Source of the DNA: Desulfobacterales bacterium | GTDB lineage: Bacteria; Desulfobacterota; Desulfobacteria; Desulfobacterales; Desulfobacteraceae | Reading direction: 5' to 3' | NCBI GenBank assembly: GCA_022361395.1 | Contig: JAKSAX010000150.1 | Coordinates: 1 to 58,984 of the forward strand | DNA length: 58,984 bases | Shown: in pieces, positions 7,315-49,499 of the stretch | Layout: each line of letters begins with the position of its first letter | Numbering within the stretch: position 1 is the first letter of the stretch | Made by a program: the position numbers and the translations under genes | Notes under the pieces: generated by a model | The model's input: the letters and a program-made list of their open reading frames with translations, nothing else | Told to the model about the DNA's origin: nothing | The model's database searches: none

Positions 7315-8123
7315 TTTTTTCGGCGTCCTGTTGTCTTCTTTTTCAATTGTTTTAGAGGCACTTCCACTTCTGTCCTGTCTTCCATTCGAACCGTAATGCT
7401 TTCCTTGAGCACATTCTGACGGACGACTTTTCCCTTGCCTGCTTCAATGGTAATCGGCTTGCCCAGCTTCGGCATTCTTTTTTTGCAATGTTTATAGGTT
7501 TTATTTTCAAAGGTCAGGCAGCACATCAGGCGGCCGCAGACCCCGGAGATTTTCGTGGGGTTTAAAGAGAGCCCCTGCTCTTTGGCCATTTTTATGGAAA
7601 CCGGTTCAAAAGACTGCATAAAAGAGGAGCAGCAAAGTTCTCTGCCGCATTTTCCCACCCCGCCGCAGTGTTTTGACAGATTCCTTATACCCACCTGCCG
7701 CATTTCAATACGGATACTGTACTCTTTAACCAGCAGTTTGATCAGTTCCCTGAAATCGATCCGGCCGTCTGCCGTATAAAAAAAGGTGAGTTTGTTGCGG
7801 TCAAAGGTGCTTTCCACACTGAACAGATTCATCAAAAGTCCTAGGTCATTGATACAGCTGATACAGAAGTCAAACGCCCTTTTTTCAAGCTGTTTCAGTT
7901 CGTCCCGTTTAATAAAATCTTCTTTGGTGGCAAGGCGGACAATACTTTTGAATTTTTTGTCGCCCCCTTCCACCTCTTTGGGAAGTCTGGCAACGGTTCC
8001 AAAGCCCAGGCCCTGCTCGGTCTCAACGATGACGCGGTCTCCTAAGTTCAGGACAAAGGCACCGCTTTTAAAATCATATATTTTTCCAGCTGTTTTGAAT
8101 TTAACACCAGCCACTTTGATCAT
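7311..8123 (-). CDS. ricT: PSP1-domain protein, RicT/YaaT family
   Basis: The 270-residue protein carries the PSP1 signature: cysteine clusters CGGVGKCGRELCC and GVCGRLMCC in the middle third, which bind [4Fe-4S] in the Bacillus RicAFT complex. In Bacillus, RicT helps RNase Y mature mRNAs and is linked to phosphorelay control; the role in Gram-negative bacteria is less clear. A basic tail (KKKTTGRRKK) ends the protein. It overlaps holB upstream and metG downstream by 4 bp each. The order holB-ricT-metG recalls the Firmicute holB-yaaT region and supports the identification. Confidence 0.88.
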   Translation of the reverse strand: MIKVAGVKFKTAGKIYDFKSGAFVLNLGDRVIVETEQGLGFGTVARLPKEVEGGDKKFKSIVRLATKEDFIKRDELKQLEKRAFDFCISCINDLGLLMNLFSVESTFDRNKLTFFYTADGRIDFRELIKLLVKEYSIRIEMRQVGIRNLSKHCGGVGKCGRELCCSSFMQSFEPVSIKMAKEQGLSLNPTKISGVCGRLMCCLTFENKTYKHCKKRMPKLGKPITIEAGKGKVVRQNVLKESITVRMEDRTEVEVPLKQLKKKTTGRRKK

Positions 8124-9178
8124 ATCTGCGTCAATCCCTTAGGTAATGACAATTTCAGGAAAAAGCGATCCAGGGTTAGCCTGGGGCCGCTGTTGGAGTC
8201 CAGCCTTTTTTCTGTTTCATAAAGGGCTTTCAGCCATTCAAGAAATGTCGGGTAAACATATATCTGACTAATATCTTTAAATGCGTCAAAAAAATCAAGG
8301 TTAACTATAAGATTCGGATCGTACCTGAATATGCATAAATCCCTTAAAACTGTACGCACAACAGCAATTGCATCGGAAATGCAATGGGGATCTGCAGATA
8401 ATTTTTGTGAGATGGCAAGTCCTTTTCTACTGCTTTGGAGGGCCTTGTCCCTGATCAACCCGAGGATTTCATTGATGAGCCAGGTTCTCAGCCTCAGCCA
8501 TTCAGATGTGTCCGGAGCACCATCTCCGGCACATGCTATAGCATAAGACAAGTCATTTCCTATTGTCCTTGATACAATATGGGCAGTCTGAGAGGAGATT
8601 CCATGCTGTGTGGTCAGGATTTCCCGGATCCGGTCAGCAGAGAGAGGAAAAAATTTAAAAAGACGGCATCTGGACAATATAGTCGGCAGCAACGGGGAGG
8701 TACTGACAGTGGCCAAAACGAAAAAGGTGTTATCCGGCGGCTCTTCCAGAACTTTGAGAAGCGCATTCTGGGCCTGGATGTTCATCAGATCCGCCTGCTC
8801 TATCAATACCATCCGGTGGCTTGCCTCATTGGGCCTGGAAGCAATTAACCGTCCCATTTCTCTGACCTGGGAAATGGAAATGTTTTTTTTATTCTCCTCC
8901 GGACCAAGGCAAATCATATCCGGGTGCATACCTGCATCAATCTTTTTACAAGACGGGCACAGGGAACATGACCGGTCCGTACCTTCAGTGCAATTGCAAC
9001 ACTTTGCAAACTCAAATGCCGCTTCTTTTTTCCCGGTGCCCGAAGCACCGGAAAAAAGAAGGGCATTTGGAATTCTGCCATTCTGAATGATTATTGTTAA
9101 TTCAGATAAGGGTGTAGATCTCAAACCAGTAGGTAGGATGGTTTTGGATCGGGCAGGCTTCTGATCAAGATTCGGCAT
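8120..9178 (-). CDS. holB: DNA polymerase III delta' subunit
   Basis: Clamp-loader subunit of the replisome. The 352 residues include a P-loop-like GASGTGKKE near residue 45, followed by a zinc module (CCNC...CSLCPSC) typical of the DnaX/HolB AAA+ family. The segment LLKVLEEPPDNTFFVLAT, with ILSRC after it, matches sensor 1 and the SRC arginine-finger motif. It differs from DnaX at 28200-29984 by its shorter length and lack of the C-terminal tau region. The stop codon overlaps the ricT start (ATGA). Confidence 0.9.
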   Translation of the reverse strand: MPNLDQKPARSKTILPTGLRSTPLSELTIIIQNGRIPNALLFSGASGTGKKEAAFEFAKCCNCTEGTDRSCSLCPSCKKIDAGMHPDMICLGPEENKKNISISQVREMGRLIASRPNEASHRMVLIEQADLMNIQAQNALLKVLEEPPDNTFFVLATVSTSPLLPTILSRCRLFKFFPLSADRIREILTTQHGISSQTAHIVSRTIGNDLSYAIACAGDGAPDTSEWLRLRTWLINEILGLIRDKALQSSRKGLAISQKLSADPHCISDAIAVVRTVLRDLCIFRYDPNLIVNLDFFDAFKDISQIYVYPTFLEWLKALYETEKRLDSNSGPRLTLDRFFLKLSLPKGLTQI

Positions 9179-10075: not shown

Positions 10076-12354
10076 TTGCTGCCGAATTCTCCTATCCCGT
10101 TCAGGGTGACCATGAAAGCGATGGTCCTTTCTGCCGATTCATCCTTGAGTTCCAACTTAAGTCCCCAGCATTGTTTTTCCACTTCGATACCGGTTCGGGT
10201 CTCTATGGTGGTATCATCTTCAAGGTCACTCTCAAACGAGTAGTATGCCATAAGATAGCTTGTGATCCGGGCATTAAACCGTGTTAACCAGGTATGAGTG
10301 GTGCTGCCCTTTGTATATCTGTATGATGTATAAATGCTGTCTCCACGGTTATCGCGCAGGGTGACGCCCACTTTAATTTCTGTAAAGTGTTGATTATATG
10401 GATCCAGCGCAATGTCCCCATCGCTGCTCAGATAATGAAAAGGGTTGAGTTCATATTTTAATTTCAGATCTTGCCAAGGTTTTTCAGGTGCATCAACGGC
10501 ATCTTTATCCCAATCGAAAAGATAGTTCTGATAAAGCCTGAACCAAGCCAGTTCTTTATATTGATTACTCACTGTTCCATCTGCTTTGCGTCCCTTTTTT
10601 CTTGAGGTAATGGTATTGGTTAGTGACCATTGGATTAAGTTCAGCTGGTCAATATCATCAATATCATCAAAATAAGGCAGATCGTCTTGGTCCTCTTCCG
10701 GTAGGTATTTATACTCTAGTTTCGGGACAATTTCATGCTTGATTTTTTCTGCAAAGCTATTGTTAAGATTAAAAATTCTGTTAAGACTAGTTGAAAGTTG
10801 TGCACCGAAATCGTACAATCCACGTGTGCGTATGTCTTTATCATTGCCGTAATTATCAGTAAAATTTTCGGTATCCCATATCGTTCCCCGGGCACCAAGA
10901 TACGGTTCAAAGAAAAATGATTTTCCTAAATTTGTGGGGTAAAAGAATCTTGAATAAAAATCAGCCCTTTGACCGTTCACTTTCGGCGTTGACGAACTTG
11001 GGTTCGGATCCTGTCTGAAAAAATATCGATATTCAGAATCAAATCCATAGTAAAAATTTGATTCACCTATTTGCTGGCGTGCGCCATCAAATTCAATGCT
11101 CGGGAGTTGTTGTAAAGTGGTATCGTCTGAATTCTGTTGTCTGGCTACCACATTGTCATACCATAGGGCTTGGATATTGAGGTTATATTTCGACCAGCTC
11201 TTTGTGGCCAGTAAGCTGTTCTTTCGGGTTTTGTCCGTATATTCATCTAAACTGCGGCCAAACATGGTTTCAAAACCGGAATTGGTGTCATGATAGCCTG
11301 TGAAACCGTCTTTAAACTCCAGCAGGTAGTCGGAGTCACTTACAAAATCGATATCCAGCTTTGCATTGAACCCGTAAGGGAGTGCCTGGTCATGCTTCAT
11401 CCTGAACCAGTAACGCTCATGGTTTGTCCGATCAATCGTTGAGCTATAGCCATAGTTGACATCCTGGGTGTCATCGGAGCCGTCACCGAGTTTATCATCG
11501 TCCAGGTAATCCACGATCATCATTCCTTTGGACTTGTCATCTAATACATAGCGGAACTCTCCTGATATTTTTGTTCCCCTGTCAGACATATGGTGTGCAT
11601 AGACTGTTGCATCTGTACTCCGGGAGATAGCTATAAACAAAGGCTGTTCATACTCAAATCCCCGTTTGTCAGAAATTGATACTCTTGGAAACAGCAGGCC
11701 GGTCTGCCTTTTATTTTTCACAGGGAAAACAAGGTATGGGGAATAGACCACTGGTACCTTTTTTGCCCAGAGAGCCGTGTGGCTGGCAGTACCGTATCCT
11801 TCAATGGTTACTTCTATATCTTTACCTGTAATTTTCCAGTCCGGTGTGTCTCCGTTGCAGGTGGTTATGGTTCCTTTTTCTGCATCGTAGGTAAATTCTC
11901 CTGTTTTTCTTAGATTTTCCCCGGAAATATAATAGTTGTCTTCCTGGATAAATATGGTGCCCTTATTAATGGTGCCTTTTTCCGTGAGCAGGTTTATCTG
12001 CATGGCATTGCAGGTGATTGTATCACCGCCGGAGATAAAAAGGACATTTCCCTGGGCAAAGGCGTCCTTGGTCTTGTTTGAAAATTCTACATAGTCTGCT
12101 TCCAGCCGGGTCTGTCCTCCGGTGATAACGACATTGTCCTCTGCAACATATAATTCCCGCTCATTGTCATAGGTCACCATGAGTGCTGAGATATGCCAGG
12201 AGATCTCTTTGGGATTTTCCATTTTGGGCGTAGCAGCCCGGGCACAGGTAATGGCGAACAGGCATAAAAAAAGGGTAAACACCACTGTCAGCGGCAGGCT
12301 TTTTCGTGAAAACAAACGGTACATGGGCTTTCCACTTAATAAATTGCACATCAT
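10072..12354 (-). CDS. lptD: LPS-assembly outer-membrane protein LptD
   Basis: Inserts lipopolysaccharide into the outer leaflet, with LptE. A signal peptide (hydrophobic core about 20-40, cleavage near ARA/ATPK) is followed by an OstA/LptA-like N-terminal domain (about 60-200) and a long beta-barrel to residue 760. An alternative start at Met11 (MYRLFSRKSLPL) would give a more ordinary signal peptide. Recognisable LptD stretches include KKVPVVYSPYLVFPVKNKRQ and TGLLFPRVSISDKRGFEYEQ. The presence of this gene shows that the cell makes LPS. A promoter candidate lies at 12367-12396, and the stop overlaps the start of the NusG paralogue. Confidence 0.93.
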   Translation of the reverse strand: MMCNLLSGKPMYRLFSRKSLPLTVVFTLFLCLFAITCARAATPKMENPKEISWHISALMVTYDNERELYVAEDNVVITGGQTRLEADYVEFSNKTKDAFAQGNVLFISGGDTITCNAMQINLLTEKGTINKGTIFIQEDNYYISGENLRKTGEFTYDAEKGTITTCNGDTPDWKITGKDIEVTIEGYGTASHTALWAKKVPVVYSPYLVFPVKNKRQTGLLFPRVSISDKRGFEYEQPLFIAISRSTDATVYAHHMSDRGTKISGEFRYVLDDKSKGMMIVDYLDDDKLGDGSDDTQDVNYGYSSTIDRTNHERYWFRMKHDQALPYGFNAKLDIDFVSDSDYLLEFKDGFTGYHDTNSGFETMFGRSLDEYTDKTRKNSLLATKSWSKYNLNIQALWYDNVVARQQNSDDTTLQQLPSIEFDGARQQIGESNFYYGFDSEYRYFFRQDPNPSSSTPKVNGQRADFYSRFFYPTNLGKSFFFEPYLGARGTIWDTENFTDNYGNDKDIRTRGLYDFGAQLSTSLNRIFNLNNSFAEKIKHEIVPKLEYKYLPEEDQDDLPYFDDIDDIDQLNLIQWSLTNTITSRKKGRKADGTVSNQYKELAWFRLYQNYLFDWDKDAVDAPEKPWQDLKLKYELNPFHYLSSDGDIALDPYNQHFTEIKVGVTLRDNRGDSIYTSYRYTKGSTTHTWLTRFNARITSYLMAYYSFESDLEDDTTIETRTGIEVEKQCWGLKLELKDESAERTIAFMVTLNGIGEFGSK

Positions 12355-42234: not shown

Positions 42235-42717
42235 ATGATGAAGATCATCGGTATTGATCCCGGACTGGCAGGCACTGGTATCGGCGTGGTTCAGGGTCAG
42301 GGAATGGATATTGAGGAATATTCATTCGGTTCCATATCCACAGATGCCAAAGATGCCTTACCCACCAGATTGAATCTTATCTATTCCAAGGCCAATTCAT
42401 TTTTAGAGCAGCAGAGGCCTGACCTTGTTGTTATTGAGGATATTTACTCCCTTGAAAAATACCCCGGATCAGGTATTATGTTGGGGAAAGTCACCGGAGT
42501 GCTGCTGCTGGCGGCTTTCAACGCCGGCGCCACCATTAAGGAGGTGGCCGTCAGGGAGGTAAAAAAAATAATATCCGGGAACGGAAGTGCGGACAAGTAC
42601 CAGGTGGAGCGGTCCGTGCGCCACCTACTGAACCATGACGGGCCCATCAGGCCGTTTCACGCCTCTGATGCACTGGGGCTGGCATTAACCGGTTTATACA
42701 GATATGGAAAACAATAA
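42235..42717 (+). CDS. ruvC: Holliday-junction resolvase RuvC
   Basis: The 160-residue endonuclease has acidic catalytic residues in GIDPGLAGTG, VVIEDIYS and the C-terminal HASDALGLAL. The second Met (42238) is an equally possible start. Its last base overlaps the first of ruvA. Confidence 0.96.
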   Translation: MMKIIGIDPGLAGTGIGVVQGQGMDIEEYSFGSISTDAKDALPTRLNLIYSKANSFLEQQRPDLVVIEDIYSLEKYPGSGIMLGKVTGVLLLAAFNAGATIKEVAVREVKKIISGNGSADKYQVERSVRHLLNHDGPIRPFHASDALGLALTGLYRYGKQ

Positions 42718-43364
42718 TGATCGGATATATTAGGGGGACAATTCTTCGCCATGAGCCGGACGGTATTCTTCTGCTGGCCGGTCACATCGGGTATGAGATT
42801 CTTCTTGATCCTGTAACTCTGGCCCAGGCTGTTGCCGGGGCTGAAAACCAGGAACGGGAAGAAGACCAGGGGGAAATCTCTCTCTATATTTATTATCATG
42901 TCACTGAACGACAGCCAAAGCCGGTTCTCATAGGATTTCTGGCCCCTGAAGACAAAGAGTTCTTCCAGCTGTTTATTACTGTTTCCGCCATTGGCCCCAT
43001 GAAGGCGATTAAGGCATTGACCAAGCCGGTTTCAGAGGTAGCTTCGGCCATTGAGAATAAGGATGTGGCGTTTTTATCCCAATTGTCAGGCATTGGTAAA
43101 CGGACTGCTGAAAAGATCATCGCTACCCTCCGCGGAAAGGTTGTGGAATTTATAGGAACCGGAGGTGTGAACGAAGACGTACCCGTTGCCGCGGTTCCTG
43201 TTGAACGGGAGGGTATTTCAAGGCAGGTGGGTGACGTATTGGTTGAACAGCTCGGGCATTCCGCCGCTTCAGCCCAGCGTATGATAAAAGAGGCCTTTGA
43301 CCGGAATCCCTCCATCCGGACACCGGAGGATCTGTTTGATGAAATTTACCAGGAGAACCGTTAG
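42717..43364 (+). CDS. ruvA: Holliday-junction helicase subunit RuvA
   Basis: The 215-residue DNA-binding platform has an OB fold ([10 protein letters not shown] ... [15 protein letters not shown]), helix-hairpin-helix motifs ([16 protein letters not shown] and [13 protein letters not shown]) and a flexible C-terminal domain III (about 165-215). It assembles tetramers on the four-way junction for RuvB. Confidence 0.96.
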
Positions 43365-43366
43365 CC

Positions 43367-44398
43367 ATGGAGACGGATATCATATCCTTTTCATCGGACA
43401 GGAAAGGGGTGGTTTCAGAAAAGCAGAAACCGGAAGACGGATCCCCGGAGATTGTTTCCCTCCGTCCGACCCGTTTCAATGATTATGTGGGCCAGAAAGA
43501 GGCTGTTGAGACACTGAAAATTGCCATCCAGGCAGCAAAGCTGAGGGGAGAGCCCCTGGATCATATCCTGCTCCATGGTCCTCCCGGACTTGGGAAAACC
43601 ACGGTTTCCCATATTATTGCCAATGAAATGGGCAAAGAATTGACAATTACCTCAGGGCCGACCCTGGAAAAGGGGGGGGATCTGGTTGGGATTCTGACCC
43701 ACCTGGGTGAGGGTGATATCCTTTTTGTGGATGAAATTCATAGAATCCCCAAAGTGGTTGAGGAGTTTTTATACCCTGCCATGGAGGATTTTGCAGTTGA
43801 TTTCGTGTTTGACAAGGGGATTCATGCCAGGAGCCACCGCTACCGGCTAAAGCAATTTGTCCTGATCGGGGCAACCACACGGGTGGGATTGTTGTCTGCC
43901 CCCCTGCGTGACCGGTTCGGTATATTCAGGACCCTGGATTTTTATTCGGTTGAAGAGCTTGTGGTGATTATCAAACGTTCTGCCGCAATTTTAAACACCC
44001 ATATGTCCGATGACGGTGCAAGGGCACTGGCGTTAAGGTCAAGGGGAACCCCCAGGGTGGCAAACCGGCTCCTAAAGAGGGTGCGGGATTATGCCCAGGT
44101 AAAACACGAGGGCCGGGTTTCCTCTCAGGGGGTCAGGGAGGCGCTGGCGCTTGAAGGGATTGATAACCTGGGCCTGACCCGTTTGGACAGAAATTACCTT
44201 AAGACCATTATAGATTTTTATGGAGGCGGGCCTGTGGGGATAGAGGCGATTGCAGCCACCCTTCAGGAAGAAACAGATACGCTTGTGGATGTGGTAGAGC
44301 CCTTTTTATTGAAAATTGGCCTTGTCCTCCGGACCTCCAGTGGACGAAAAGCTTCCGAGCGGGCTTATCAGCATTTGAAGATGGACCCTAAAAGATAA
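43367..44398 (+). CDS. ruvB: Holliday-junction ATPase RuvB
   Basis: The 343-residue AAA+ motor has Walker [10 protein letters not shown], Walker B ([10 protein letters not shown]), sensor 1 ([19 protein letters not shown]) and a C-terminal winged helix. Length and order (ruvCAB) are normal. It starts 2 bp after ruvA. Confidence 0.97.
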
Positions 44399-44410: not shown

Positions 44411-45718
44411 ATGAGAGCAATGAGAGAATCCCTTTTTTTTGTGTTGTTCTGTTTGTCAGGACTTGTTATTGCCCCCGGCCTACTTGCGAATGAGCAGTTT
44501 TTACCGGAGGCTCTGATCATGATGCCGGAAAATGAGCATGCCGTCATCGTTGAAAAGCAGACCCAAAAGCTATATGTCTACTCTGTCTCCCGGGACGGGA
44601 TAGCGCTGTCCTACAAGTTTGACTGTTCAACAGGAGAGGCTGCCGGCCCTAAAACAAAGGCCGGGGATAAGAAAACGCCGGAGGGGGTCTACTTTTTAAA
44701 GGACGAGTATGAAGACCGTTACCTGACCCCGGTATACGGCAAAAAAGCATTTCCGTCAGACTACCCGAACCTGCTGGACCTGCGCCAGGGCAAGCAGGGC
44801 TCGGCCATATGGATTCACGGCACGGACAAGCCCTTAAAACCGATGGATTCCAACGGATGTGTGGCCCTTGAAAACAAAAATATCATGACCCTGTCCAAGT
44901 TAGTCAATCTGGATGCAACCCCTCTGATCATTGTTGAGACGATTCAATCGAAGGGGCAGGAAGAGCTCAAGGCCCGGGAAAAACAGATCACGGGGTTTTT
45001 AACCCAATGGGTAGAGGCCATGGGGCATGGCAGTTATCATCAGTATCTCTCCTTTTACGCTGATGATTATGTGCCTGATATTTCATGGTGGGAAACCTGG
45101 CTCAGTATGCGGAAGACAGGTATAAAAAAGAATCAAAGATTTAAAGTCGAGCTGAAAAACACAGGGATTTATGCCCATGAAGGGGTGATCGTTGTGCTTA
45201 TGGATATGTACCTTGCCGTGGATAGGGAATCCAGGTTCCTTGGTAAGCGGCAATTGTTCATCAGGGCATCTGAAAAACCGGTAATCGTGGGAGATCTGTT
45301 TCAGAAACGGGCAAAGGCATATGCCTCAGGAGAGGTGCCGCTGGTCGCCGCTGCCCGGGAACTGGTTATGGATGATTCAATGGATATTGCCGTGGTTGAA
45401 ACCGTTGAACAATGGCTCGCTGCATGGTCGGCAAAGGATATGGCGGAATATGCCGCGTTCTATGCCAATGATTTTTATTCGGACGGACTTGGAAAAAACG
45501 CATGGGTGAGACGGAAGAAGCAGCTTGCCAAACGTTACGATTATATTTCTGTGACAGGAAAAGATTACAAGGTTATTCAGAAAAAAGACGGTTATGAGGT
45601 CAGTTTTCTTCAACTTTATGAGTCCAGCGGATTCTCTACCAAGGGAAGGAAGCGATTGAAACTGGTCAGAAAAGGTGGCTTATGGAAGATATATCGAGAG
45701 AATTGGAAAGGGAAATAG
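44411..45718 (+). CDS. YkuD-type L,D-transpeptidase with NTF2-like domains (Csd6/Pgp2-like)
   Basis: The 435-residue protein carries a signal peptide (about 6-26), then a YkuD domain (about 40-178) with catalytic HGT (136-138) and SNGC (Cys150). Two SnoaL/NTF2-like domains follow (about 190-300 and 325-432). The same layout, YkuD plus NTF2-like, is found in Helicobacter Csd6, which trims peptidoglycan tetrapeptides to tripeptides and sets helical shape. Whether this copy is a transpeptidase or a carboxypeptidase cannot be read from motifs. It overlaps the next gene by 37 bp and heads the cell-shape cassette, 13 bp after ruvB. Confidence 0.85.
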   Translation: MRAMRESLFFVLFCLSGLVIAPGLLANEQFLPEALIMMPENEHAVIVEKQTQKLYVYSVSRDGIALSYKFDCSTGEAAGPKTKAGDKKTPEGVYFLKDEYEDRYLTPVYGKKAFPSDYPNLLDLRQGKQGSAIWIHGTDKPLKPMDSNGCVALENKNIMTLSKLVNLDATPLIIVETIQSKGQEELKAREKQITGFLTQWVEAMGHGSYHQYLSFYADDYVPDISWWETWLSMRKTGIKKNQRFKVELKNTGIYAHEGVIVVLMDMYLAVDRESRFLGKRQLFIRASEKPVIVGDLFQKRAKAYASGEVPLVAAARELVMDDSMDIAVVETVEQWLAAWSAKDMAEYAAFYANDFYSDGLGKNAWVRRKKQLAKRYDYISVTGKDYKVIQKKDGYEVSFLQLYESSGFSTKGRKRLKLVRKGGLWKIYRENWKGK

Positions 45719-46629
45719 CCCGGGCAAAGCCTTCTCCACACAGAACCAGCCGCAAGAAAAAAATTCTGGTTGTTGATGATTTCGGAGAGTTGAAATCGGG
45801 TGGGTATTTAAAGGTTCTGGTATATCTGTTTTCAATCACAAGTGTGATCGGCATTGCCGGCGCCCTGTGCTTTTATTTCCTCTATACCAGTGCAAGCAAT
45901 GAAAACAGTTTGCTCAAGGAAAAGCTTGCCGGGGTTGAGAAAAAGGCTGACAGGTTGACCAATGATAAGGAAATTTTAATGGCCAGGCTGGTTATGACAG
46001 GCAAAAAGCCGGCCCTTGATGTTGAGAAAACCAGTCCGGCCGCGGCTAAAACCCAGGCCAAAGAAAAAAAGCCGGGCATCATGCCCAAACCTGATTTTAA
46101 AAACGGAAGCCTCAAAACCGTGGAGGAGGCGAAAGCAACACCCCGGGAGAAGCCCTTAGATGCAGCACCGGTTTTACCGCAGAAAACGGACGAGACTGCT
46201 GAGTTGACCGCAACACAGGCAGTGGAAGAGGTCCCGGTAACCCCTGAACTTGAACCCTTTGTTGCCGTGGAAAAGTTCTCCGTCACCCAGGGCAGCACAA
46301 ACGGCGAGTTGATTGTCCGGTTTGATATCAGGAATATTTCCACCAAACCCGGCGGGATATCCGGACGTATCTTTACCGTACTGAAACCGGGGACAGACGA
46401 AGAAGAAAAATGGGTTGTCGTGCCCAGTGCGCCGCTGGAGGACGGGATGCCGTCCCTGTACCGGAAGGGGCAGTACTTTTCCATTTCCAGATTTAAACCG
46501 GTCAAATTTACAGTCAGAAGCCAGGCAACCCCGGAGTCATTCCATAAGGCAACTGTATATATTTTTAACGATGACGGAAAGTTGATGTTTAACGGAAATA
46601 TGAAAATTAACGAGGCTGAAACCGATTAA
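45682..46629 (+). CDS. Single-pass membrane protein of the cell-shape cassette
   Basis: No known family. The 315-residue protein has a cytoplasmic basic N-terminus (1-42, with PHRTSRKKKILVVDD), a membrane helix (about 43-68), a coiled coil (about 72-104), a Lys/Pro/Ala/Glu-rich linker (105-190) and a C-terminal beta-rich domain (193-312). The start has AAGGTGG upstream and overlaps the L,D-transpeptidase gene by 37 bp; its own stop overlaps the carboxypeptidase start. The topology (cytoplasmic tail, one helix, periplasmic domain) would allow it to connect bactofilin inside with the wall enzymes outside, as Csd5 does in Helicobacter. That role is inference. Confidence 0.8.
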   Translation: MEDISRELEREIARAKPSPHRTSRKKKILVVDDFGELKSGGYLKVLVYLFSITSVIGIAGALCFYFLYTSASNENSLLKEKLAGVEKKADRLTNDKEILMARLVMTGKKPALDVEKTSPAAAKTQAKEKKPGIMPKPDFKNGSLKTVEEAKATPREKPLDAAPVLPQKTDETAELTATQAVEEVPVTPELEPFVAVEKFSVTQGSTNGELIVRFDIRNISTKPGGISGRIFTVLKPGTDEEEKWVVVPSAPLEDGMPSLYRKGQYFSISRFKPVKFTVRSQATPESFHKATVYIFNDDGKLMFNGNMKINEAETD

Positions 46630-48137
46630 TGGCAGGGAAGAGTAAAATATGCTTTGCCCGTGTTATACGCCGGCTGATTTTTTATGGGGTTCTGTTTGCC
46701 GTTTTCTGTTCCCAGGCAACGGCCGGTCAAAAAACCCATACAGTGTTTTTTGAAGGTGAAGAAAATGAACTCCATGTCTATAGAATCTTCGGAGCCGAGC
46801 CCGGAAAAACCCTTCTCGTGGTGGGCGGTATTCAGGGAGATGAGCCCGGCGGGTTTCTTGCTGCGGATTTCTTTGCCGATATGACACTGGAAAAAGGTAA
46901 CCTGATTGTGGTGCCCAGGGCCAATTTCCCGTCGATCTTAAAAAAAGAGCGGCAGATCAATCAGGATATGAATCGTAAGTTTATGGATGACCACACCTCC
47001 AACTATGAGGCAGAGGTGGTGCAGGTTCTCAAAAAACTGATCTGTGAAAGCGATTGCTTCTTGAATCTTCATGAGGGGTCGGGGTTTTATTCCCACACCT
47101 GGGATGGGGTTGACAGAAATCCGGAAAAATTCGGACAATCCATTATTGCGGACGAGGCGTATTTAAAGCAGGGTGAAAATCAGCCGGGACTGGACCTTGA
47201 GAAAATGGCGCTTGAGGTGATCCGGACCATTAATTCGGGAATACCGGATGAGGCGCATTATTTCCATTTCAACAACCACAAAACAAGTCATCCGGATTCC
47301 CTGCATAAGGAGCAGAGAAGATCTGCAACCTATTATGCCATGAACATCTGTAAAATCCCCGCCTTTGGCATTGAGTCTGCCAAGTCCCTTCCCCTGGAGC
47401 AAAAAATCCGCCAGCATATTCTTGCGGTGAACGGTTTTCTGGCACTGATGGATATCAAACCCCGGACACCGGGAATTGATCTGGAGAAGCCGGAGATGCA
47501 GTATATGATCATCTCCGTCAATGATTCAATTCCTGTTGTGGTGGGTAAAATGCAGCGGTTAAAAATAAAACAGGGCGATGTTATTCAGATACATGATATT
47601 GTGGCCAACTATGAACGGGGGCTCAGTGTTGATGTTATCGGGGTGGGCAATGAGTTTAACGATATGAAGAAAAAGCTGAAAATCGTTGAACCCACCCGGA
47701 TTGAAGCTAAAAAGGATTTTTATGCCTGCGGCAGTGTTTTTTTGGATATCCAGGATAAAAGGGGGACCGGAGACCTCAACCGGTTGTCTTTAAGTGATTC
47801 TGAGAAATCCGACGAACTCAGGTATAAACTCAAGATTAACGGAAAAACCAGGATTGTGGAAAATTACGGCCGGGTGAATTTGAATTTCGGTGACCGCCTG
47901 ATAATTGTGGATGTCATAAGCGGGGATATTGACCCGTCTGCATACATTGTGAATTTTAAGGGGTTTGTGGGAAACAGCAGCCTTAACACAGGCGAGGACA
48001 GGGGATATGTCATAGATACCGGAGCCGGTGTTTTATTGCCAAGATATTCCCTTGAAAAACAGGGCAGGCGTTATCATGTAGTAACAACCTTAGGCGGGAA
48101 TGAGGTCGGAAAAATATTTATTGATATTCAATCATAA
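46629..48137 (+). CDS. M14/M99-type zinc carboxypeptidase, Csd4/Pgp1-like
   Basis: The 502-residue exported enzyme (signal about 12-32) has a metallocarboxypeptidase domain. The zinc motif is GGIQGDEPGG, so the first ligand is Gln69 instead of His, with Glu72 and His148 (LNLHEG); NQDMNRKF (111-118) and the likely catalytic Glu249 (FGIES) complete the site. A Gln at this place is the hallmark of Helicobacter Csd4 and Campylobacter Pgp1, which cut tripeptide stems to dipeptides and create helical shape. The C-terminal half (about 290-502) resembles the extra beta domains of that family. It lies between the membrane protein and the bactofilin gene. Confidence 0.88.
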   Translation: MAGKSKICFARVIRRLIFYGVLFAVFCSQATAGQKTHTVFFEGEENELHVYRIFGAEPGKTLLVVGGIQGDEPGGFLAADFFADMTLEKGNLIVVPRANFPSILKKERQINQDMNRKFMDDHTSNYEAEVVQVLKKLICESDCFLNLHEGSGFYSHTWDGVDRNPEKFGQSIIADEAYLKQGENQPGLDLEKMALEVIRTINSGIPDEAHYFHFNNHKTSHPDSLHKEQRRSATYYAMNICKIPAFGIESAKSLPLEQKIRQHILAVNGFLALMDIKPRTPGIDLEKPEMQYMIISVNDSIPVVVGKMQRLKIKQGDVIQIHDIVANYERGLSVDVIGVGNEFNDMKKKLKIVEPTRIEAKKDFYACGSVFLDIQDKRGTGDLNRLSLSDSEKSDELRYKLKINGKTRIVENYGRVNLNFGDRLIIVDVISGDIDPSAYIVNFKGFVGNSSLNTGEDRGYVIDTGAGVLLPRYSLEKQGRRYHVVTTLGGNEVGKIFIDIQS

Positions 48138-48157
48138 AAATATTGAGGAGACGTGCG

Positions 48158-48574
48158 GTGGGTAAAAAAGACAGGAAAAACCTGAGTATTATTGATAAGG
48201 AATTGAAGATTGACGGCTCCATATCCAGCACTGGAAAGTTAATTATAAAAGGTAAGGTGACCGGAACCATAGACGGGGATGTGGTGATTATTGCCGAAGA
48301 CGGACAGGTGGATTCAAGTGCCACCAAGGTGGCCAGTTTAACCATTGGAGGGAATTTTCAAGGAGAGGTGGCTGCATCCAAGGAGCTGATCATCCTTTCC
48401 ACCGGTACCTGTGCCGGAAAGGTGGAGTGTCAGGATCTTATTGTGGAAAACGGGGGGATTCTGAATGCCGATGTCTCTTGCAAAACAGCTAGTAAAATGA
48501 GCATCCCGAAAAAAGAGTCAAAGATTTTTTCTCCGGGTCCCAGCCTGAAAACCGAAAAACAGATAGAGTTGTAA
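48158..48574 (+). CDS. Bactofilin (CcmA-type polymer-forming protein)
   Basis: The 138-residue protein forms filaments under the inner membrane. The bactofilin core (about 20-115) has the repeated beta-helix pattern: GKLIIKGKVTGTIDGDVVII, SLTIGGNFQGEV, ELIILSTGTCAGKVECQDLI. I place the start at GTG 48158, with GAGGAGA 6 nt upstream, not at TTG 48143. In Helicobacter, CcmA works with Csd proteins. Here it closes the cassette 21 bp after the Csd4-like gene. Confidence 0.9.
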   Translation: MGKKDRKNLSIIDKELKIDGSISSTGKLIIKGKVTGTIDGDVVIIAEDGQVDSSATKVASLTIGGNFQGEVAASKELIILSTGTCAGKVECQDLIVENGGILNADVSCKTASKMSIPKKESKIFSPGPSLKTEKQIEL

Positions 48575-48645: not shown

Positions 48646-49080
48646 TTGAAAAAGTATACATATAGTGCCAAGAGAGCAGATAACAAAGAGAACTGGTGTG
48701 TGATTGATGCAAAGGATCAGGTGCTTGGGCGCCTGGCGTCCCAGGTGGCTTACCGGATCCGCGGTAAGCATAATCCCCTGTACACTCCCCACGTTGATAT
48801 GGGTGACTGGGTGGTTATTATCAATGCGGATAAAATTCGCCTGACCGGTAACAAAATGGATCAGAAAACCTATTACCGGCATTCCGGTTACATGGGCGGG
48901 ATTAAATCTGAGACCGTTAAAGAGGTCCTGGAGAAAAAACCTGAGGAAGTGCTCAGGAAGGCTGTTCGGGGAATGCTCCCAAAAAACAGGCTGGGTAGGA
49001 AATTAGGAAAAAAATTATTTGTATATGCAGGCGACCAGCATCCCCATGCTGCTCAGAAGCCTGAAGTTGTTGAAATTTAA
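48646..49080 (+). CDS. rplM: Ribosomal protein L13
   Basis: The 144-residue large-subunit protein starts at TTG (48646) with GAGGAG about 9 nt upstream; no in-frame ATG fits. Signatures: [20 protein letters not shown] and [15 protein letters not shown]. Paired with rpsI as in most bacteria. Confidence 0.98.
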
Positions 49081-49103
49081 AGGATAAGGACGCGATACTA
49101 TCA

Positions 49104-49499
49104 ATGGAAAGTGGAAACGTTTTTTACGCAACAGGTAAGCGGAAAGATTCTGTGGCCAAAGTGTGGCTTGTGCCTGGTACAGGGAAGATTGTTGTTAATA
49201 ACAGAGAAATGGAAGAGTACTTCGATATTCCTGTAAACCAGGGCGCGCTGACCTCACCTCTGGTATTGACCGATAATGCCGAAGCTTTCGACGTTAAGGT
49301 CACCGTTATGGGCGGCGGACAGACCGGTCAGGCCGGAGCAGTACGTCAAGGTGTTTCTAAAGCACTTGTACTGGCAGATCCGGAGCTGAGAGGCGTTCTT
49401 AAATCAGCCGGTTTCCTGACCCGGGATGCCAGGAAGAAAGAACGTAAAAAATACGGTAAAAAAGGCGCAAGAGCCAGTTTCCAGTTCTCAAAAAGATAG
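49104..49499 (+). CDS. rpsI: Ribosomal protein S9
   Basis: The 131-residue small-subunit protein begins [20 protein letters not shown] and ends with the conserved basic tail [17 protein letters not shown], which reaches toward the P site. It is followed by a terminator. Confidence 0.98.

Follow-up and report, generated by a model that had tools for sequence, protein, structure and literature searches.

The closest described counterpart of the locus reported here is the BacA-LmdC system of Hyphomonas neptunium and Rhodospirillum rubrum. Its bactofilin gene adjoins the gene for a single-pass membrane protein, LmdC, binding to BacA was found in vitro for the N-terminal part of the H. neptunium protein, curvature of R. 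rubrum is modulated by BacA and LmdC, and changes in the hairpin of R. rubrum LmdC abolish inner-curve enrichment (PMC10945521). A bactofilin gene also overlaps a wall-hydrolase gene in Campylobacterota, the hydrolase being an M23 peptidase (PMC10151779), and the Helicobacter pylori bactofilin CcmA interacts with Csd5, a single-pass protein with a short cytoplasmic N-terminus (PMC9448923). Among wall carboxypeptidases, Bd1075 of Bdellovibrio bacteriovorus is an L,D-carboxypeptidase that causes cell curvature and is localised at the outer curve through its NTF2 domain (PMC8938487), and Csd4/Pgp1 is the D,L-carboxypeptidase of Helicobacter/Campylobacter. Here, we describe a four-gene cassette from a sulfate-reducer-type Desulfobacterales bacterium (assembly GCA_022361395.1, contig JAKSAX010000150.1, a stretch of 58,984 nucleotides hereafter called the window) that genetically ties carboxypeptidases of the Csd4, Csd6 and Bd1075 types to a bactofilin and a membrane protein with an LmdC-like N-terminal segment and thereby offers, in environmental relatives, a concrete candidate for the adaptor that would place such enzymes on one side of the cell. 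The window corresponds to contig C221 in an assembly of 6.57 Mb and 611 contigs, with a completeness of 95.7% and a contamination of 8.9%. No description of the four-gene set was found in the open-access literature, a search that left subscription journals mostly outside.

The cassette consists of four same-strand open reading frames (ORFs) between ruvB and rplM, which encode a YkuD protein, a membrane protein called the linker below, an M99 carboxypeptidase and a bactofilin (Table 1); the names ruvC, ruvA, ruvB, rplM and rpsI for the flanking genes are our assumption from their sequences. The YkuD and linker ORFs overlap by 37 bp and the linker and M99 ORFs by 1 bp, in agreement with a first-pass annotation of the DNA that had described four overlapping or near-abutting genes at 44411..48574. 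On balance, we consider it probable that the cassette is a bactofilin-scaffolded wall-trimming module in which the linker is an LmdC-derived adaptor that places wall carboxypeptidases. Judging from profile similarity and co-occurrence, the linker would bind bactofilin via a cytoplasmic LmdC-type beta-hairpin, cross the membrane once and present a periplasmic Ig-like domain, and gene order suggests that this periplasmic part could hold or position the two secreted carboxypeptidases. As an L,D-carboxypeptidase of the Csd6/Pgp2/Bd1075 kind, the YkuD protein would then take the terminal D-Ala off tetrapeptides, leaving tripeptides that the M99 protein, acting as a D,L-carboxypeptidase like Csd4, would shorten to dipeptides. 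By analogy with Bd1075, Csd6 and Csd4, uneven trimming along the cell may bias wall structure and thereby change cell shape, most likely toward curvature.

Pfam returned nothing for the linker at E<=1 and NCBIfam nothing close to its cut-off, and homologues were found in 45 of 59 relatives. Its AlphaFold2 (AF2) model, with a mean predicted local distance difference test score (pLDDT) of 70.7, has on the N-terminal side a short helix and a small beta-hairpin at residues 30-38 (strands 30-31 and 37-38), followed by a helix at 41-106, a low-confidence stretch at 111-186 and a beta-sandwich at 194-308 of the common Ig/FnIII-like type, for which the best Foldseek match was 2r2c (E 4e-4) and the next were mainly GH3 and other beta-sandwich proteins. 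The glycine of the hairpin turn, G35, is the sole invariant column among 56 linkers. In sequence, the cytoplasmic beta-hairpin, membrane helix and coiled coil of LmdC align with the N-terminus of the linker, which differs from LmdC in the absence of an M23 domain (in the same Pfam search) and in the Ig-like domain that is predicted in the M23 position. LmdC is itself an endopeptidase, whereas the enzymes of the cassette are separate secreted carboxypeptidases; likewise, the bactofilin partners in Campylobacterota are M23 peptidases, whereas the cassette combines M99, YkuD and an enzyme-free adaptor. The linker also resembles Csd5 in topology, but Csd5 has a periplasmic SH3 domain (PMC9448923) where the model of the linker predicts an Ig/FnIII-type beta-sandwich. 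No sign of common descent with Csd5 was found by Pfam or among the Foldseek matches listed, and homology to Csd5 was rejected, with no SH3 domain detected by Pfam (E<=1) or among the 50 Foldseek matches listed.

A relation between the linker N-terminus and LmdC-type M23 peptidases is suggested by profile comparisons. A linker profile run against 395 genomes of the phylum also returned weak matches over the N-terminal half. Twenty match sites were read (the strong match L224 and 19 weaker ones, picked by hand), of which 8 held M23-motif proteins and 12 linker-type proteins; the remaining weak matches may be coiled-coil noise. The 8 M23-motif proteins (Pfam was run on one of these loci, L216) can be aligned with the linker through hairpin, membrane helix and coiled coil. 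With hhalign, the linker N-terminus matched LmdC-type M23 proteins at 96.5% (E 8.4e-10) over 85 columns, 8 of the 11 M23 rows in this comparison having come from the linker-profile search itself. For 18 M23 proteins collected via the M23 domain only, namely those that passed a motif and length filter among 30 M23 loci fetched from relatives, the value was 93.5% (E 2.3e-7) in the same register, while a reversed profile reached 1.4% and 27 alignments of other membrane-type ORFs at most 2.9%. When the parts were compared separately with the M23 proteins, hhalign gave 69% (E 4e-5) for the hairpin and 92.8% (E 4e-7) for the helix; with simple hidden Markov models (HMMs), neither part alone was significant. 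A bactofilin gene lies directly 3' of two hairpin-M23 genes (L220 and L221).

We tentatively extend this reading, with rather less confidence, to the idea that evolution has used the hairpin, membrane helix and coiled coil as an exchangeable plug for bactofilin and has swapped the periplasmic cargo behind it, an M23 endopeptidase in LmdC and, in the linker, an Ig-like domain to which L,D- and D,L-carboxypeptidases are recruited as separate proteins. If true, the cytoskeleton-to-wall adaptor that is missing for Csd6/Csd4-type enzymes of the phylum would be the linker family, which would outlive its enzyme partners.

The distribution of the cassette genes provides a second line of evidence. M99 was detected in 73 of the 395 phylum genomes, and 75 of 77 M99 sites were examined (G001 and G041, below the family cut-off, were omitted). 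Eighteen of the 75 loci belong to the Csd4 clade and stand alone; within 1.5 kb of the M99 gene, the 57 others have ykud in 48 cases, linker in 42 and bactofilin in 15, and eight have no detected neighbour gene, being divergent, short or cut by a contig end. Forty-one of these 57 loci have the trio of ykud, linker and M99, and in 13 of them a bactofilin gene adjoins it. Because the trio is kept in so many loci and the 37-bp ykud/linker overlap recurs (it was found again in 44 of 88 loci, some contigs being counted twice), the arrangement is not due to chance, and the conservation of the neighbourhood in related genomes that the first-pass annotation looked for holds beyond the family. Linker-profile matches at E<=1e-3 occur in 167 genomes, and the 65 genomes with E<=2e-14 are referred to as strong. 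Bactofilin was detected in 63 of the 65 strong-linker genomes vs 182 of the 330 others (Fisher 1.5e-12, a test that ignores genome relatedness, which tells against resting much on it); the two strong-linker genomes without bactofilin, G042 and G115, are 67% and 78% complete. Cds6_C was detected in 50 of the 65 vs 47 of the 330, and M99 in 40 vs 33. In all three loci scanned in family f50 (L205, L210 and L213), a linker-type gene directly follows a gene for a YkuD protein with Cds6_C, and M99 and bactofilin are located at other sites. That partial sets are kept together in many relatives suggests a possible shared cell-shaping device. The linker-type family of the f50 genomes (L205-L215) is of shorter length.

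Within the family of the window, the linker was detected in 29 of 36 genomes, all 29 of which have a bactofilin match, compared with 2 of the 7 linker-less genomes. Linker and bactofilin together are the most consistently kept part of the cassette in the family; the membrane protein seen in the first-pass annotation is present, but its treatment there as a mere link does not fit. Of the 29 linker loci, the complete four-gene set is present in 10, ykud and bactofilin without M99 in 8, linker and bactofilin alone in 7 and another combination in 4, for the most part at a contig end or with an insertion.

Several observations weigh against the reading that we favour. FtsB, a control with a membrane helix and a coiled coil that was run because it had appeared in a PDB search with the linker profile, matched the linker at 42.7% (E 2.5e-4) over 37 coiled-coil columns, and coiled-coil bias in the linker profile comparison is real; the PDB sequence search itself returned helix-rich fusions, coiled coils and FtsB (best E 0.0058; FtsB 0.018), which were rejected as compositional noise. 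A hairpin-only HMM was non-significant against the M23 proteins (E 0.2-0.4, best decoy 0.33). Since no bactofilin gene was seen in the short flanks of any of the 30 M23 loci from relatives, and since G399 has a hairpin-type M23 protein (L238) though no bactofilin match, the hairpin is no proof of bactofilin binding. G397 likewise encodes a hairpin-membrane-helix M23 protein (L235), and its bactofilin match is weak only and lies in a 581-aa frame. The hairpin may thus not be specific to bactofilin, and may be a module with another cytoplasmic partner. On the periplasmic side, the seven family genomes with linker and bactofilin only have no M99 or Cds6_C match (completeness is 56% and 74% for two of the assemblies). 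In six of the seven, which are close relatives, mean identity is 77% for the periplasmic domain and 77% for the hairpin. It would thus seem that the linker has a further partner or function, and a linker that serves YkuD and M99 alone is disfavoured because its periplasmic domain stays conserved without the enzymes.

These seven of the 29 family loci, together with the conservation of the periplasmic domain in them, would also be expected if linker and bactofilin were a general organiser of wall growth or division that is not dedicated to curvature, with YkuD and M99 as optional clients, an alternative that we regard as unlikely, though it deserves more weight than the others discussed below. 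Enzyme loss of the kind that this alternative predicts is seen in two loci. In L188 (G404), decayed ykud remnants at 8116-8648, between ruvB and linker, consist of pieces up to 89% identical to intact copies of the genus, and because these pieces remain, ykud must have been lost there; in L127 (G072), the M99 frame is split by a stop. However, optional clients would not readily account for the enrichment of strong-linker genomes in Cds6_C and M99 given above, and distant families keep a gene for a YkuD protein with NTF2 beside the linker with no M99 or bactofilin nearby (L205, L210, L213 and L224).

The YkuD protein matches PF03734 (1.3e-18, Pfam) and, C-terminally and above the cut-off, the Cds6_C NTF2 family PF24125 (1.8e-20), which is preceded by a second, weaker NTF2-like stretch. 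Its catalytic residues, His 136 and Cys 150, are each kept in 96 of 98 rows, and both the YkuD and M99 proteins begin with a hydrophobic sequence that reads as signal-like. Among solved structures, Bd1075 (7o21, 1.2e-40) ranks before Pgp2 (2.4e-19) and Csd6 (6e-18), and the match to this nearest relative spans the YkuD and C-terminal NTF2 domains. The Pfam and PDB matches bear out the first-pass recognition of a YkuD enzyme with NTF2-like domains of the Csd6/Pgp2/Bd1075 type. The cassette protein differs from Bd1075 in having two NTF2-like stretches instead of one and in the clustering of its gene with linker, M99 and bactofilin. In the YkuD tree, Csd6 and Pgp2 form a pair (97); Bd1075 has a long branch, as do these two, and the joining of the three drew a warning from the program. 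The adjoining YkuD protein of two family members (L182 and L146) has no Cds6_C match at E<=0.01.

The M99 protein matches PF17033 (6.1e-39, Pfam) and PDB 4q6m (3.1e-30) and contains the motif GIQGDEPGG, with Gln and Glu ligands, at residues 67-75. The metal ligands of the Q-x-x-E...H pattern and the catalytic Glu are all present (Q69, E72, H148 and E249) and are invariant across the 20 sequences of one M99 alignment, while among the 82 M99 rows that have ykud or linker close by the Gln is kept in 79, the first Glu in 81, the His in 81 and the catalytic Glu in 80; the carboxypeptidase with a Gln zinc ligand named in the first-pass annotation is thus supported, with Q69 as this ligand. The likeness to Csd4/Pgp1 comprises the catalytic domain, the QxxE...H ligands, an Arg and the catalytic Glu (PMC4220969), but the cassette protein falls in another clade. 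In a tree of 105 M99 rows, H. pylori Csd4 and 18 M99 proteins form one clade (support 99 / 99.9), and no match to ykud, linker or bactofilin lies within 1.5 kb of any of these 18 companions; the clade includes the second M99 copy of the same assembly (contig C350, L131). The cassette M99 proteins are in a separate group of 78 rows (support 95), 75 of which have ykud or linker nearby. Forcing Csd4 into the cassette group, whose limits were adjusted after tree inspection, costs 58.7 log units (p value of the approximately unbiased (AU) test, 0.005), in a quick tree in which Csd4 is represented by a single H. pylori fragment, whose long branch drew a warning from the program. The window protein has no Pfam match at E<=1 to M99_m, the middle beta-barrel (PF17130), or to M99_C, the C-terminal Ig-like domain (PF17129), whereas the C350 copy matches PF17129 at 2e-22 and PF17130 at 0.0023, under its cut-off. 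The top five PDB matches of the window M99 model (Foldseek) are all Csd4, with 465-486 aligned columns, almost the full length, and a poor overall root-mean-square deviation (rmsd) of ~14. The cassette M99 thus resembles Csd4 in its catalytic domain but is probably not its ortholog, so that the Csd4 half of the Csd6/Csd4 assignment made at first pass is not sustained.

Contamination as the source of the C350 copy is unlikely, as a comparable high-scoring copy is found in nine genomes of the same genus (G397, G398, G400, G402, G405, G407, G408, G409 and G410, the copy in G408 having a stop). At L131 304-2743 (C350) and L148 7410-9646, a VanY-type (PF02557) gene precedes the gene for a Csd4-clade M99 and the ends of the two ORFs overlap; the two genes are perhaps a second, separate wall-trimming pair.

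The position of M99 bears directly on the proposal that the cassette is the orthologous Helicobacter/Campylobacter curvature set (Csd6, Csd4 and CcmA) gathered in one operon around a passive membrane link, in a vibrioid cell. Such an origin would be in line with the adjacent presence of a YkuD protein with NTF2 domains, a Gln-ligand M99 and a bactofilin, as well as with the complete cassette of one named isolate, Desulfospira joergensenii (L081), which we take to be vibrioid, an assumption for which no confirming paper was found. A literature search on the cell shape of relatives returned none on Desulfospira and nothing usable on Desulfobacterium autotrophicum. We consider this proposal improbable, since the window M99 lies outside the 19-row Csd4 clade, a Csd4-clade copy exists elsewhere in the assembly and the YkuD protein, with its two NTF2-like stretches, is nearest to Bd1075 among solved structures. 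As for the accompanying statement that the Csd6, Csd4 and CcmA genes are scattered in Helicobacter and Campylobacter, it needs amendment with respect to bactofilin, whose gene is not isolated but overlaps an M23 gene in Campylobacterota (PMC10151779).

Although the locus sits inside a ruv-rpl string conserved in the family, in which relatives also carry an unrelated gene that we presume to encode a SAM-hydrolase-like protein, co-location that results only from a stable ruvB-rplM operon region, with no shared function, has almost no credibility, given that ykud, linker and M99 are kept together in loci whose fetched sequence, 17 kb at most, has no match to ruv, pal or rplM (L087, L093, L099 and L106 among others) and that their reading frames often overlap in loci away from ruv-rpl.

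The bactofilin, also named at first pass, matches PF04519 (4.6e-19, Pfam) and the solved bactofilin 6ria (6.7e-5) and is the only bactofilin match in the assembly. Its listed ORF starts with TTG at 48143, which is probably wrong because GAGGAG (48145-48150) precedes an in-frame GTG at 48158 by 7 nt. Named relatives of the M99 gene are from Desulfobacula, Desulfospira and further Desulfobacteraceae records. Scans for promoter- and terminator-like signals at the operon ends returned ~2x the number found in shuffled sequence and were not used. The features of the locus are listed in Table 1.

Table 1. Features of the cassette and its flanks (positions in the window).
Feature	Position	Strand	Basis
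ruvC-ruvA-ruvB, upstream anchor	42235..44398	+	ruvB match in 26/29 fetched family loci
YkuD L,D-carboxypeptidase-type protein, two NTF2-like stretches (Csd6/Pgp2/Bd1075 type)	44411..45718	+	Pfam, PDB
Single-pass membrane linker/adaptor	45682..46629	+	ORF, homologues, AF2 model
Linker residues 22-44, predicted cytoplasmic beta-hairpin, LmdC-type	45745..45813	+	Conservation, model, hhalign
Linker residues 41-106, predicted single long helix (membrane span + coiled coil)	45802..45999	+	Model, M23 alignment
Linker residues 194-308, predicted periplasmic Ig/FnIII-like beta-sandwich	46261..46605	+	Model, Foldseek
M99 carboxypeptidase, Csd4-like yet outside Csd4 clade	46629..48137	+	Pfam, PDB 4q6m, tree
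Bactofilin, probable GTG start	48158..48574	+	PF04519, PDB 6ria
rplM-rpsI, downstream anchor	48646..49499	+	rplM match in 27/29 fetched family loci

Additional genes were observed within or beside the cassette in relatives. An LmdC-type M23 gene lies between M99 and bactofilin in L114 (6200-7051) and L120 (6875-7726), both of which have a five-gene ykud-linker-M99-M23-bactofilin set. In L177, a gene that we take to be transposase-like is located between M99 and bactofilin (10589-11632). The presumed SAM-hydrolase-like gene is absent from the window and lies between ruvB and the cassette in 13 relatives (L097, L105, L127, L133, L137, L138, L141, L142, L145, L172, L200, L201 and L203).

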